Assembly: GCA_013821605.1 (NCBI GenBank)
Contig: JACDGP010000048.1
Span: forward strand, 1 to 36,954
Reading direction: 5' to 3'
Source of the DNA: Herpetosiphonaceae bacterium
GTDB taxonomy: Bacteria; Chloroflexota; Chloroflexia; Chloroflexales; Kallotenuaceae
DNA: 36,954 bases
A program made the position numbers and the translations under genes. Below the pieces are notes generated by a model that saw nothing but the letters and a program-made list of their open reading frames with translations, had not been told where the DNA came from and did not search any database. Below are positions 71 to 17,869 of this stretch, one piece after another (within the stretch, counting starts at the first letter, position 1; the number at the start of each line of letters is the position of its first letter).

Positions 71-2419
71 ATGGATGTTCAAGTCGATCAATGGCTGTTC
101 GGTTGGGACCCGCTACCTGGGATTGTGTCGGTCTGGGCCGGACGTGACGGGCGTGCGGTTGTGTGGCAGCGCGTGCAGGACCAGGTGGTTTGTACTCGGG
201 ACCGCTTTCGGCCCTGGATCATGGCGACGACCCTGGCCGATCTTGGGCACCTAGGCGCTGATCTCGTACCGGTAACAGCGGCAAGCCCGGATGTGGGCCT
301 GGTACAGTATCGAGAGTTGGACGGGCCTACGGATGGCTACCGCTATCTCTTGTCAGCGCGTCCCGGCTATGCGCTGGACCGTGCGATCTTGCAGGGTGCC
401 TCCCGGCGGCTAGGGCGGGTGGTCACACGGCTCCGTGCCCTTGACGACTACTACGGCGTTGGTCCAGTTGAGCAGTATCTGATGCAGACCGGCCGCGTCT
501 ACTTTCGCGGTCTCGAGTATGATGATCTCCACCGCTTGCAGTTTGACCTCGAAACGACCGCGCTCGATCCCCGTGAGGGGCGGATCTTCATGGTTGCGGT
601 GCGCGATAATCGGGGCCTAGCGACCATCCTGGAAGCACCGGAGCCGGAGGACGAGCCGCGCTTAATCAGCGATCTCTGCTCGCTCATACGCGAACGTGAT
701 CCCGACGTGATCGAGAATCATAATCTGCATGGCTTCGACCTGCCGTTTGTGGTGGAGCGAGCCCGTCGGTTGTGGGTGCCACTCTACCTGGCACGGGTGG
801 GTGGTCCGCCGGAGCTTGAGCAATATGCCGACTCGCGCGGCAAAGCTGCCAACGGCGAACGCCGCATGCGTTGGAGCATTCCTGGTCGTGAACTGATTGA
901 CACACTGGACGCGGTACGACGCTATGATTTCTCGGCGCGCGAACTCCCCAGCCATGGACTGAAGGCGGTGGCCCGCCATTTCGGCTTGGCGGCGACGGAT
1001 CGCGTCGAGTTGCCGGGTGCACAAATCTATGCGACCTACCGCTCCGATCCGGCGCGCGTCCGGCAGTATGCACTGCAGGACGTCGAGGAGGTTGATGGCT
1101 TGTCACGGCGACTGCTTGGCGCACCCTTTGCGCTGGCCGGCATGGCCCCCCGGCGCTATGAGCGGGTGGCTTCGGCCGGACCGGCGATGGGCATCTTGGA
1201 GCCGCTGCTTGTTCGAGCCTATCTGCGTGCGGGAGCAGCGCTCCCTTGTGAGAAACAACCGGTGCTGGCACCCCATGCCGGTGGTGCTACGCTGTTGTTT
1301 GCCACGGGCATCGCGCAACAAGTGGTCAAGGCTGACGTTGCCTCGCTGTATCCATCGTTGATGCGCTGCTACCAGATAGGCCCTGTCTGCGACCGGTTGG
1401 GCGTGCTGCTTGGTATCCTTGACCGGCTGATCGATCTGCGGCTGCTGCATAAAGCTGCAGCCCGAACGGCGGTGCCCGGTTCATTGATTGCCGGTCACCA
1501 TGATGGCATGCAGGCCGCCATGAAGATTTTGATCAATTCGGCCTACGGCTATATGGGCGCGCCACATCTGGCGCTTTTCGCCGATCAGCATGCTGCCGAT
1601 GAGGTGACCCGGCGCGGGCGTGAGTTGCTGCAAGGGGTCGTTAACGCGCTACGGGGGCGCGGCGTGGCCTTGATCGAGGCCGATACCGATGGCGTATATG
1701 TGGCAGTGCCCGAGCACTGGGCCGAACGCGAGGAGCGCGCGCTGGTCGCCGCTATCGCCACTGAACTGCCAGCGGGCATTCAGCTTGAGTACGAGGGTCG
1801 CTACCAAGCGATGTTTAGCCATGAGGTGAAAAATTACGCGCTTCTCACCTATGATGGCAAGTTGATCACGCGGGGGGTGGCCTTCCGCTCACGCGGTGCC
1901 GTGCCGTTCGCCGAGCGTTGGCTACAAACCGCCCTGCATGCCCTCTTGCACGGCGATGTGGTAGGCGTGCGAGCAGCCTTTCTCGCCACTATCGCAGCGG
2001 TACGGAGCGGGACCATGCCGCTGGCGGAGCTTGCCGAGCAGGTCGCCTTGACCAAAACACCCGAGGCCTATGCTGCGACGCGTGCACGGCGGCCCGAGCC
2101 GGTTTATGAAGCACTGCTGGCAGCCGGGCGCACGACGTGGCGGGCAGGCGAGCGCATCCGGATCTACCGTGACGCGGATCATCGCTGGTTCTCCCTCCCA
2201 ACGGGCGATGATGCCTCAGCTACCGCAGCTTACGATACCGACCATTACCTCCAGAACGTGCTCATGGGCTATGCCACGCGGTTGCGTAAGGCCTTCGCCC
2301 CGGATGACTTCGCGCAGATCGTGCAGATGGATGGCCAACTCGGACTGTTTGATCGCCCGATAGCACAGATCGAGCCACACTGGATTCGATGTGGCAACGT
2401 CGAATTGCCCATCCCCTAA
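71..2419 (+). CDS. Family B DNA polymerase with 3'-5' exonuclease
   Basis: Template-directed DNA polymerase of family B (Pol II/archaeal PolB type) with a proofreading domain, about 782 aa, close to E. coli Pol II in length. The exonuclease site is complete: Exo I FDLETTALDP near residue 160, Exo II NHNLHGFDLPF near 220 and Exo III YALQDVEEV near 335. Polymerase motifs follow in order: motif A DVASLYPSLM near 422, motif B KILINSAYGYMG near 485 and motif C EADTDGVYV near 538, with both catalytic Asp present. ATG at 71 is chosen because an AGGA-like site lies about 9 nt upstream; an in-frame ATG at 47 would add 8 residues but has no ribosome site. A TATACT hexamer at 32-37 could be a -10 box, with no good -35. 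A role in repair or translesion synthesis is inferred from Pol II, not shown by neighbours. Confidence 0.93.
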   Translation: MDVQVDQWLFGWDPLPGIVSVWAGRDGRAVVWQRVQDQVVCTRDRFRPWIMATTLADLGHLGADLVPVTAASPDVGLVQYRELDGPTDGYRYLLSARPGYALDRAILQGASRRLGRVVTRLRALDDYYGVGPVEQYLMQTGRVYFRGLEYDDLHRLQFDLETTALDPREGRIFMVAVRDNRGLATILEAPEPEDEPRLISDLCSLIRERDPDVIENHNLHGFDLPFVVERARRLWVPLYLARVGGPPELEQYADSRGKAANGERRMRWSIPGRELIDTLDAVRRYDFSARELPSHGLKAVARHFGLAATDRVELPGAQIYATYRSDPARVRQYALQDVEEVDGLSRRLLGAPFALAGMAPRRYERVASAGPAMGILEPLLVRAYLRAGAALPCEKQPVLAPHAGGATLLFATGIAQQVVKADVASLYPSLMRCYQIGPVCDRLGVLLGILDRLIDLRLLHKAAARTAVPGSLIAGHHDGMQAAMKILINSAYGYMGAPHLALFADQHAADEVTRRGRELLQGVVNALRGRGVALIEADTDGVYVAVPEHWAEREERALVAAIATELPAGIQLEYEGRYQAMFSHEVKNYALLTYDGKLITRGVAFRSRGAVPFAERWLQTALHALLHGDVVGVRAAFLATIAAVRSGTMPLAELAEQVALTKTPEAYAATRARRPEPVYEALLAAGRTTWRAGERIRIYRDADHRWFSLPTGDDASATAAYDTDHYLQNVLMGYATRLRKAFAPDDFAQIVQMDGQLGLFDRPIAQIEPHWIRCGNVELPIP

Positions 2420-15651: not shown

Positions 15652-15969
15652 TCAGTGCGCTTTCCGCGCATCCACCGCCTCTCGCAGCAACACAATAATT
15701 TCGCCATTGATCGAGCGCACGTCTTGCTGCGCTAGCTGCTCCACATCATTGATTAACTCCGTTGGCAGGGATACTGCCATCCGGCTCTGCGTTCGCTCCG
15801 CGCGCGGCACACCGCCGGAGCGCCGGCTTCCTCCTACCCGACGCTCCTCGCCGGCACGACGCTCGGGCTCATCCCACGTGCCACCGCCTACGCGCCGGTC
15901 ACCATTTGCTCGCTGGTCACCTTCTGCTCCAGCACGACCCTCGCTGCTCCGTTCCTTTTTCATGGCCAT
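15652..15969 (-). CDS. Ribbon-helix-helix DNA-binding protein with basic tail
   Basis: About 105 aa. The last 45 residues form an Arc/CopG-like ribbon-helix-helix: strand RMAVSLPTEL, helix INDVEQLAQQ and helix RSINGEIIVLLREAVDA. The first 60 residues are low-complexity, rich in Arg, Gly and Glu (for example ERRAGEERRVGGSRRSGG), probably disordered. ATG at 15969 follows GGAGAGG; ATG at 15963 is an alternative. It faces the pentapeptide gene, and the intergenic DNA carries repeated heptamers of the kind bound cooperatively by ribbon-helix-helix repressors, so it probably controls itself or its neighbour or both. No toxin gene is adjacent, which argues against a simple antitoxin. Confidence 0.75.
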   Translation of the reverse strand: MAMKKERSSEGRAGAEGDQRANGDRRVGGGTWDEPERRAGEERRVGGSRRSGGVPRAERTQSRMAVSLPTELINDVEQLAQQDVRSINGEIIVLLREAVDARKAH

Positions 15970-16000
15970 GACCTCTCCATATACTGTGTGTATCAATCAT

Positions 16001-16079
16001 ACATCAATTTGCTGCCAGAGTGTTGACAAATATCATTTTGATGTTATACTGATGTTTATCAGATGTTCAACCAACATCA
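16001..16079. promoter_or_regulatory. Candidate operator: 11-bp-phased TGATGTT repeats
   Basis: The heptamer TGATGTT occurs at 16039 and 16050, and as AGATGTT at 16061, each exactly 11 bp after the last, i.e. on one DNA face. Inverted copies lie at 16073-16079 (AACATCA) and, as ACATCAA, at 16001-16007. The array covers the -10 box and start region of the pentapeptide promoter. Binding by the adjacent ribbon-helix-helix protein is inferred. Confidence 0.6.
16023..16050 (+). promoter_or_regulatory. Sigma-70 promoter of the pentapeptide gene
   Basis: TTGACA (16023-16028), a 16-bp spacer and TATACT (16045-16050) make a near-consensus housekeeping promoter in an AT-rich stretch. RNA would start near 16057, inside the repeat array, leaving a leader of about 50 nt. 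Confidence 0.75.
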
Positions 16080-16106
16080 CCTAACAAGTATTGCGAGGTA
16101 GCGTCC

Positions 16107-16721
16107 ATGCTCAACATTCAACGTTCTCGGTCCACCCTCCCTCGTCTCCTGCTCCTGGTCATCGTGACCCTCTGGAGCGCGCTCGCCCTCGGTCATGTGT
16201 CGGCGCACAGTTGTGATAGCACAACGGGCTTTCCCAACCTCCAAGCACGCGACTTGTCCGGCTGTGACTTGACCGGCGCTTCCCTCAACCAGGCGAACCT
16301 GACCGGCGCGAACCTGAGCGGTGCTATCCTGAACCATGCCAGCGTGCAAGGGGCCGTTCTAACGAGGACCAACCTGCAAGGTGCTGTCCTAACCGGCGCG
16401 AACCTGAGCGGTGCCGTCCTGAATCACGCCAGCCTACAAGGGGCCGTCCTGATCAGCGCGAACCTGAGCGGTGCCGTCCTGGACCACGCCAGCCTGCAAG
16501 GTACCATCCTGATGGGTGCCAACTTGCAAGGTGCCACGCTCACCCATGCCAACCTCACGCAGGCTAACCTCACGACGGTCAACCTGACCTACGCCAACCT
16601 CAGCTACGCTACCCTGTATCAAACGACCGGCACAGACATTCTGTGGTCAAGCACCATCTGCCCCGACCGTACCACCAGCACTGCCGACGGTGGCACCTGT
16701 GCCGGACACTTCCACGTCTAG
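16107..16721 (+). CDS. Exported pentapeptide-repeat protein
   Basis: 204 aa. A signal peptide ([19 protein letters not shown], ending near VSA) precedes about 24 tandem A(N/S)Lxx pentapeptides (residues about 45-170; for example [16 protein letters not shown]) that would fold into a right-handed quadrilateral beta-helix. A short C-terminal cap has two cysteines. Pentapeptide proteins such as Qnr and MfpA are cytoplasmic and bind gyrase; here export makes a structural or surface role more likely. At DNA level the repeats are nearly identical (copies begin at 16308, 16398 and 16458), pointing to recent amplification. GAGG precedes the ATG, and a strong, apparently regulated promoter lies upstream. 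Confidence 0.88.
16308..16517 (+). repeat. Near-identical in-gene DNA repeats
   Basis: The unit beginning GCGAACCTGAGCGGTGC recurs at 16308, 16398 and 16458. The 60-nt blocks 16398-16457 and 16458-16517 differ at only a few positions. All offsets are multiples of 15 nt, so repeat gain or loss keeps frame. Confidence 0.7.
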
Positions 16722-16847: not shown

Positions 16848-17315
16848 TCACCATGTTGGACGAAATTTTTGTGGCAACGTGCCACCATTCACCACCGTGA
16901 TAAGTTGGCGCAAGTCAGCCCTTAGCTCTTCCATACGCTCTGCTCCAACGATCACCGCCCACTGTGTTTCCAGATCTGAGAGGATCCCCTCGGTCTCGCG
17001 AATACAGTTCCACCCCCGCTCCGTGAGGGTAACGATCTTCCCGCGCCGATCCGCAGGGTGTGGCTGGCGCATAACGTAGCCATGCTGTTCAAGATAATCC
17101 ACCATCTCACTTGCAGCTTGTTTAGTAATGTCTAAAAAGTCGGCAAGCTCGTTCCCAGTTGCACCATCAGGCGCGAGGCGCTGGAAAGCGAACCCGTGTG
17201 CAGGACGAACATCGTCGTAGCCGAGTGTAGCAAGCTGTCCATGTAAGTGGTCTATCACCGTCCGAAATCCGAGCCCAAGCAGGAGCATCAAGTCATAATG
17301 AGGTGTGGATGCCAT
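16848..17315 (-). CDS. MarR-family transcriptional regulator
   Basis: About 155 aa. Helices for dimerisation flank a winged helix: LADFLDITKQAASEMVDYLEQ near residue 60 holds the recognition helix, and VMRQPHPADRRGKIVTLTERG near 85 is the MarR wing with its Asp-Arg-Arg core. ATG at 17315 is used; TTG at 17321, with AGGG ahead of it, is an alternative. The gene is divergent from a SnoaL-like gene, and two matching palindromes lie between them, so it most likely represses its neighbour and itself. MarR proteins usually respond to small phenolic or oxidising ligands; the ligand here is unknown. Confidence 0.9.
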   Translation of the reverse strand: MASTPHYDLMLLLGLGFRTVIDHLHGQLATLGYDDVRPAHGFAFQRLAPDGATGNELADFLDITKQAASEMVDYLEQHGYVMRQPHPADRRGKIVTLTERGWNCIRETEGILSDLETQWAVIVGAERMEELRADLRQLITVVNGGTLPQKFRPTW

Positions 17316-17342
17316 CCTCAATGTTCCCTTTGTTTCTATAAA

Positions 17343-17361
17343 TAGTCAAGCCGCTTGACTA
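17343..17361. promoter_or_regulatory. MarR-type operator 1
   Basis: Perfect palindrome TAGTCAAG-CCG-CTTGACTA. Its right arm contains the -35 of the SnoaL promoter, so binding would block RNA polymerase. Confidence 0.75.
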
Positions 17362-17383
17362 TATTCGCAGTGGACTATATACT
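17355..17383 (+). promoter_or_regulatory. Sigma-70 promoter of the SnoaL-like gene
   Basis: TTGACT (17355-17360), a 17-bp spacer and TATACT (17378-17383). RNA would begin near 17390, at the edge of operator 2. Confidence 0.72.
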
Positions 17384-17389
17384 ATGTAA

Positions 17390-17410
17390 GTAGTCAAGCC
17401 CTTTGACTAC
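17390..17410. promoter_or_regulatory. MarR-type operator 2
   Basis: Palindrome GTAGTCAA-GCCCT-TTGACTAC, the same half-site as operator 1. Its centre is 48 bp from that of operator 1 and it covers the expected transcription start. Confidence 0.72.
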
Positions 17411-17467
17411 TATACGATGAGTTTTCTCATAGGGGAACAATTCTACTTGGTCCCATAGGAGGCCACG

Positions 17468-17869
17468 ATGTCTATCAACGCAAATAAAGATGTGATTACA
17501 CGGTTCATCATGGAAGTTTGGAATGGGAACAACCTTGATGTACTCGATGAGTTCCTTGATCCGGCTTACTTCGATTATTCATATCAGCCACGCAACCGTG
17601 AGGGTCTTGAGCACACCTTACTGATCATGCAGGCAGCATTTCCCGGTCATGAAACAATCATCGAAGAGATTGTTGGTGAAGCCGATGCGGTGGCAGTTTG
17701 TCTGACGTTACGCGGGACGCACACTGGGCCATTTCGCGGCTTGTCCGCGTCCGGCAAACAATTTGAAATCGGCGGCTACCGTTTCTATAAGATCAGAGAC
17801 GGCAAGATCACCTTGCATCGAGCATTACTTGACCTCCCGAGCCTGCTCCAACAGATCACAGGCCAATAG
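17468..17869 (+). CDS. SnoaL-like ester cyclase / NTF2-fold protein
   Basis: A 133-aa protein of the SnoaL/ester cyclase group: NKDVITRFIMEVWNGNNLDVLD at the N terminus, a middle AFPGHETIIEEIVGEADAVAV, GTHTGPFRGL near 80, and FYKIRDGKIT near 102. The fold is an alpha+beta cone with a pocket for small hydrophobic molecules; members range from polyketide cyclases to uncharacterised stress proteins. AGGAGG lies close to the ATG. Control by the divergent MarR regulator through two operators is strongly suggested, so the protein may handle the same compound the regulator senses. It is convergent with the transporter gene, only 7 nt away. Confidence 0.87.
   Translation: MSINANKDVITRFIMEVWNGNNLDVLDEFLDPAYFDYSYQPRNREGLEHTLLIMQAAFPGHETIIEEIVGEADAVAVCLTLRGTHTGPFRGLSASGKQFEIGGYRFYKIRDGKITLHRALLDLPSLLQQITGQ

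Follow-up and report, generated by a model that had tools for sequence, protein, structure and literature searches.

A putative operator of four GATGTT cores at 11-bp pitch between an Arc-type ribbon-helix-helix gene and a pentapeptide-repeat gene

Known ribbon-helix-helix operators and the locus

Ribbon-helix-helix (RHH) regulators are numerous, and most have no known operator. Arc and Mnt of phage P22 (Pfam Arc, PF03869) are small repressors that act at a divergently read promoter region. Their sites lie on one face of the helix, and the residues through which Arc contacts DNA are Q9, N11, and R13. AmrZ of Pseudomonas carries an extension before its RHH domain, and ParG and omega are further RHH regulators with N-terminal arms. 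RelB of E. coli is an RHH protein whose operator, relO, contains four 6-bp repeats; the dimers bind to the same face of the DNA, and the spacing of the repeats is essential for cooperativity (PMC2812701).

The window analyzed here is a 36,954-base stretch of DNA from a Herpetosiphonaceae bacterium (contig JACDGP010000048.1). Within it, a phased repeat is placed between a minus-strand RHH gene (15652–15969) and a plus-strand gene for a pentapeptide-repeat protein (16107–16721). We consider it probable that this repeat, which comprises four GATGTT cores at 11-bp pitch, is the putative operator of the adjacent Arc-type RHH protein. The protein would dock there cooperatively, shut off the pentapeptide promoter, and probably limit its own synthesis. 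The features of the locus are as follows:

15652–15969, minus strand: RHH gene (Arc/RHH_5 by Pfam), 105 amino acids from the ATG at 15969
15996–16001, minus strand: possible −10 element TATGAT of the RHH gene's own promoter, with no good −35 element (suggested by the sequence)
16000–16006, minus strand: weaker site TGATGTA, one mismatch, overlapping the possible RHH −10 element
16023–16028, plus strand: −35 element TTGACA of the pentapeptide promoter (promoter scan)
16029–16035, minus strand: weaker inverted site TGATATT, one mismatch, between the −35 and −10 elements
16040–16045, plus strand: array site 1, GATGTT
16045–16050, plus strand: −10 element TATACT of the pentapeptide promoter, situated between sites 1 and 2 with overlap (promoter scan)
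16051–16056, plus strand: array site 2, GATGTT
16062–16067, plus strand: array site 3, GATGTT (heptamer AGATGTT)
16073–16078, minus strand: array site 4, inverted (AACATC on the plus strand), at 11-bp pitch
16107–16721, plus strand: pentapeptide-repeat protein, 204 amino acids, with an N-terminus that by eye resembles a signal peptide (Pfam Pentapeptide, 134.5 bits, over cut-off)

The array and the promoter it overlaps

The three direct cores follow one another in exact 11-bp steps, and the inverted copy stands a further 11 bp on, which extends the array to four cores. A sequence-only reading of this DNA had described three same-strand TGATGTT heptamers at this spacing. The spacing holds for the hexamer GATGTT; the full heptamer is exact at sites 1 and 2, and site 3 departs from it in its first letter. 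The same reading had mentioned inverted copies; AACATC at 16073–16078 is exact, and those at 16000–16006 and 16029–16035 each carry one mismatch. Its near-consensus promoter was borne out: TTGACA and TATACT are separated by a 16-bp spacer, match the consensus at 11 of 12 positions, read toward the pentapeptide gene, and are overlapped by the array. The promoter scan detected none for the RHH gene. The RHH gene's promoter region does contain phased repeats, as RHH autoregulatory operators do.

We compared the array with 20,000 dinucleotide shuffles of positions 15970–16106. A perfect three-site array at pitch 11 arose in 0/20,000 shuffles, whereas one at any pitch of 7–23 arose in 34; a four-site array at any of these pitches arose in none. 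The array is genuine and greatly exceeds chance expectation. It is the sole perfect three-site array, at any pitch of 7–23, in the whole window. The exact pair GATGTTN5GATGTT occurs three times in the 5.88-Mb genome, twice within this array and once inside a 766-codon open frame. Outside coding frames, the genome has no further exact copy of the array, which fits a local operator. A regulon within the same genome was considered and rejected, as the pair with one mismatch is found at 21 places versus 13 for a reversed control and the sole other exact pair is coding. One one-mismatch pair (L009) lies beside promoter-like sequence and does not rise above chance.

In the proposed mechanism, each RHH dimer would insert a two-stranded sheet into one major groove. 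Dimers would load side by side on one helix face, one turn apart, and cooperate through dimer–dimer contacts. Bound dimers would sit over the −10 box and over the start region of this strong promoter facing the pentapeptide gene, so that occupancy of the array should repress it; position alone makes control of this promoter plausible. Through the weaker sites near the RHH gene start, the same protein would probably limit its own synthesis. Autoregulation is likely from the pattern seen in the family, and we are less certain of it than of control over the pentapeptide promoter because the RHH promoter was not convincingly identified. We infer binding by this RHH protein, its cooperativity, its repressive sign, and any signal that relieves it.

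The RHH protein falls over the Pfam cut-offs for both RHH_5 (28.6 bits; cut-off 26) and Arc (20.5 bits; cut-off 20.4). The RHH domain is C-terminal, spanning residues 72–112 of the 114-amino acid frame. It is preceded by about 60 residues rich in Arg and Gly; this stretch, previously called a tail, has the claimed length and composition but is an N-terminal extension. The ribosome-binding-like sequence GGAGAGG at 15972–15978, just ahead of the ATG at 15969, favors the long form of the protein. A low-confidence, uninformative AlphaFold model of the monomer, built from a six-sequence alignment, has a pTM of 0.30, one continuous helix across residues 70–104, and low confidence for residues 1–60. 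In a PDB search, the profile of close RHH relatives matched Arc, Mnt, and AmrZ weakly.

The locus resembles Arc and Mnt in its domain family (with an Arc score just over cut-off), in these distant PDB matches, in having a small putative repressor next to a divergent promoter region, and in sites that lie on one helix face. It differs from Arc in having four cores at 11 bp rather than two half-sites, in carrying the Arg/Gly-rich extension of ~60 residues that is missing from Arc, and in lying outside a phage context. A further difference is suggested by alignment: at the positions of Arc Q9, N11, and R13, the window protein has R, A, and S. Two relatives discussed below have R, N, and R (G055) and A, A, and R (G048). 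Judging from these alignments and general knowledge of Arc, the differing residues would be in keeping with different sites.

The combination of an RHH protein with four 6-bp repeats recalls RelB and relO. However, relO differs in pitch and sequence, with [A/T]TGT[A/C]A repeats and 12-bp half-sites between which no spacing is allowed. RelB also works with the toxin RelE, whereas no recognized toxin gene, such as would adjoin the RHH gene in a type II toxin-antitoxin locus, lies beside it here. The neighbors, identified by Pfam, are a convergent M24 peptidase gene downstream and the divergent pentapeptide gene. AmrZ shares with the window protein an extension before the RHH domain and is among its PDB profile matches. 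In contrast to AmrZ, ParG, and omega, the extension in the window protein is long, low-complexity, and Arg/Gly-rich, and the sequence relation is at domain level only.

RHH relatives, neighboring genes, and alternative readings

A search with the full protein gave weak matches in 4 of 60 related genomes, and the family of the window genome supplied none of them. No RHH orthologue was found in the family's six genomes at E ≤ 1e-3, and weak matches there to profile A1 are different genes. Close homologues were likewise absent from the named genome, plasmid, phage, and viral collections searched. Among 158 genomes from the class, a profile search yielded a core set (G055, G063, G048, and G072) together with more distant matches. 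The RHH_5 genes of G055 and G063, which belong to another family of the order, are orthologous. Their upstream regions read GGCAGT-11-GGCAGT-11-ACTGCC and GGTAGT-11-GGCAGT-11-GCTGCC, respectively; the array stretch is mostly kept between the two genomes, whereas the neighboring DNA has diverged. By eye, both arrays are overlain by a TTGACA-like/TATAAT-like promoter that is directed away from the RHH gene, the same arrangement as in the window.

In a three-site test, the window array and that of G055 each scored 18/18 (p = 0.001, the lowest value that 1,000 shuffles allow), and pitch 11 was the best of 7–23 in both. The G055 pattern had been spotted by eye before testing, with pitch 11 already fixed by the window. 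G063 scored 14/18 (p = 0.047), and G048, G072, and others were not significant in this test. A two-site test of G048, which carries ATATGATgctcATATGAT, gave p = 0.044 at lag 11. The geometry of the window array is found again in relatives of the regulator, with exceptions: the pitch-11 signal is absent upstream of L038, L088, L041, L055, and toxin-antitoxin-like relatives, which have upstream DNA of their own. Constant geometry with changing letters, next to the genes of a single regulator family, is the trace expected of a regulator-operator pair. The claim that 11-bp phasing marks an RHH operator is therefore supported by the own-promoter arrays of RHH_5 relatives, which share the pitch and differ in sequence, and by the lag of 11 at SPFH-RHH promoters described below. 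In the relatives, GGCAGT or GATATCA stands in place of GATGTT.

The divergent gene encodes a small protein that matches no Pfam family above cut-off in G055 and G063 and an HD-domain protein in G048. Because the divergent genes vary among array-bearing relatives, the array goes with the RHH gene rather than with a pentapeptide gene. Two loci from one genus (L036, 985–1302, minus strand; and L039), each in its own genome, encode a conserved protein of ~88 amino acids and unassigned family that faces the RHH gene across the array. At L035, an HD-domain gene (651–1208, minus strand) is read divergently from an RHH gene that carries the pair ATATGAT-11-ATATGAT.

The genome contains further pentapeptide genes. 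The nearest paralogue (L023, 1468–2031; 45% identity) is exported-looking, with an N-terminus that likewise resembles a signal peptide; 1.5 kb of flanking DNA on either side contained no RHH gene, and no significant array was found there. The sequence-only reading had proposed that the RHH and exported pentapeptide proteins form a regulated surface-protein module. We rejected a conserved module of this kind, since the six family genomes hold no close RHH homologue, the pair recurs in no other genome searched, and the closest RHH genes elsewhere adjoin genes other than pentapeptide genes. Titles and abstracts of the literature searched do not describe such a pair. Nothing links this pentapeptide family to RHH regulation in general, and the protein here appears to be a target peculiar to this locus rather than one partner in a novel conserved module.

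The isolation of the pair bears on a reading in which the array is purely an autoregulatory operator of the RHH gene and the pentapeptide gene shares the spacer by chance, being affected incidentally. The lack of conservation, the other genes beside RHH relatives, and the paralogue without an array would all suit it. We nevertheless regard it as unlikely: the strongest sites, all four of them, lie across the −10 element and start region of the pentapeptide promoter, away from the RHH gene start, and with the array occupied, repression of the pentapeptide promoter would be almost unavoidable. It is less probable still that the array serves another regulator encoded elsewhere and adjoins the RHH gene by coincidence. 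Helix-turn-helix-type proteins such as Apl of phage 186 can use direct repeats one turn apart (PMC7498355); however, this pitch is seen again next to related RHH genes across many genomes, and the window genome has no further intergenic exact copy. A short repeat made by chance or slippage and devoid of function is scarcely credible, for although such repeats arise easily in AT-rich spacers, the shuffles produced neither a three-site array at pitch 11 nor a four-site array at any pitch of 7–23, slippage does not make the in-phase inverted copy, and the array recurs in relatives with different letters. Cooperative local (auto)repression by the adjacent RHH protein, as a further case of known RHH regulation, is most likely.

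SPFH/Band-7-RHH operons across phyla

A wider profile search found a match in 51 of 400 genomes of the phylum. Many of these RHH genes sit directly downstream of an SPFH/Band-7 gene, one of which scores 88.4 bits for Pfam Band_7. The DNA upstream of SPFH-RHH genes was tested at all lags of 6–23. Among 17 Chloroflexota regions, lag 11 was the most enriched (Fisher p = 6.6e-6), followed by lag 21 (0.0017) and lag 18 (0.0047). We then drew 80 loci from named genomes with one SPFH protein as the query. According to record titles, these represent Chloroflexi, Bacteroidetes, Gemmatimonadetes, Acidobacteria, Zixibacteria, Krumholzibacteria, Sumerlaeota, and other phyla. The RHH gene lies ≤500 bp downstream of the SPFH gene in 61 of 79 loci (62 with a better profile) and 0.45–2.1 kb downstream in 17 more; one locus has no downstream DNA. 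The 18 loci first taken as an RHH-less control were rejected as such because they include these 17, which leaves no negative set.

Across 71 thinned upstream regions from many phyla, lag 11 gave a Fisher p of 1.6e-51 and was the best lag in 50. The double lag of 22 came second (p = 4.5e-11), and the smallest other p was 0.0044 (lag 6). Related genomes are pooled in these p-values, which overstate independence; in the same regions, all lags besides 11 and 22 provide the control. Alignment of the upstream regions revealed ATATCA-like cores around GATATCA at pitch 11. At loci L112–L191 and L061–L095, which span many phyla, an Arc-like RHH gene comes after an SPFH/Band-7 gene, and the DNA upstream of this operon contains GATATCA-like sites spaced at 11-bp pitch. 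An exception is the verrucomicrobial SPFH locus L146, in which the RHH gene is 1.65 kb downstream and no array lies near the aligned start.

The SPFH-RHH operon resembles the window locus in having RHH proteins of the same profile and a promoter with TGAT-containing sites at 11-bp pitch. It differs in its partner, a membrane SPFH protein whose gene is cotranscribed with the RHH gene, in its GATATCA core, and in the length of the RHH protein, only about 60 amino acids. No SPFH gene lies upstream of the window RHH gene, and the window genome contains no copy of an SPFH gene of this type at E ≤ 1e-20. Two one-mismatch matches to SPFH-type sites were found in that genome, the same number as in the control. 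The window protein is no more than a distant relative of the SPFH-linked RHH proteins (21–39% identity over the domain), and the sites differ.

An RHH gene ends some CesT/Tir-PspA operons that contain band-7 genes (PMC11237479). The literature searched, which mostly excludes subscription journals, holds no description of an SPFH-RHH operator or of TGATATCA as an operator. It is possible, though we hold this tentatively, that Arc-like RHH proteins with site arrays at 11-bp pitch form an undescribed system conserved across several phyla, chiefly as the SPFH/Band-7-RHH operon. The window locus would then represent a stand-alone branch in which the protein gained an Arg/Gly-rich N-terminal arm, the site changed to GATGTT, and the exported pentapeptide gene became a new target.

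The comparison shows the sequence of the site changing while its geometry stays. For a large Arc-like branch, it offers a testable rule, namely repeats at 11-bp pitch on the regulator's own promoter, and the repeat in the window becomes a concrete regulatory prediction. The more interesting by-product is the cross-phylum operator, predicted as ATATCA/GATATCA at pitch 11 for the SPFH-RHH operon in several phyla.

Elsewhere in the window, the spacer at 17322–17467, between a MarR gene (16848–17321, minus strand) and a SnoaL-like gene (17468–17869, plus strand), contains the near-palindromes TAGTCAAGCCGCTTGACTA and TAGTCAAGCCCTTTGACTA, which look like ordinary MarR operators.
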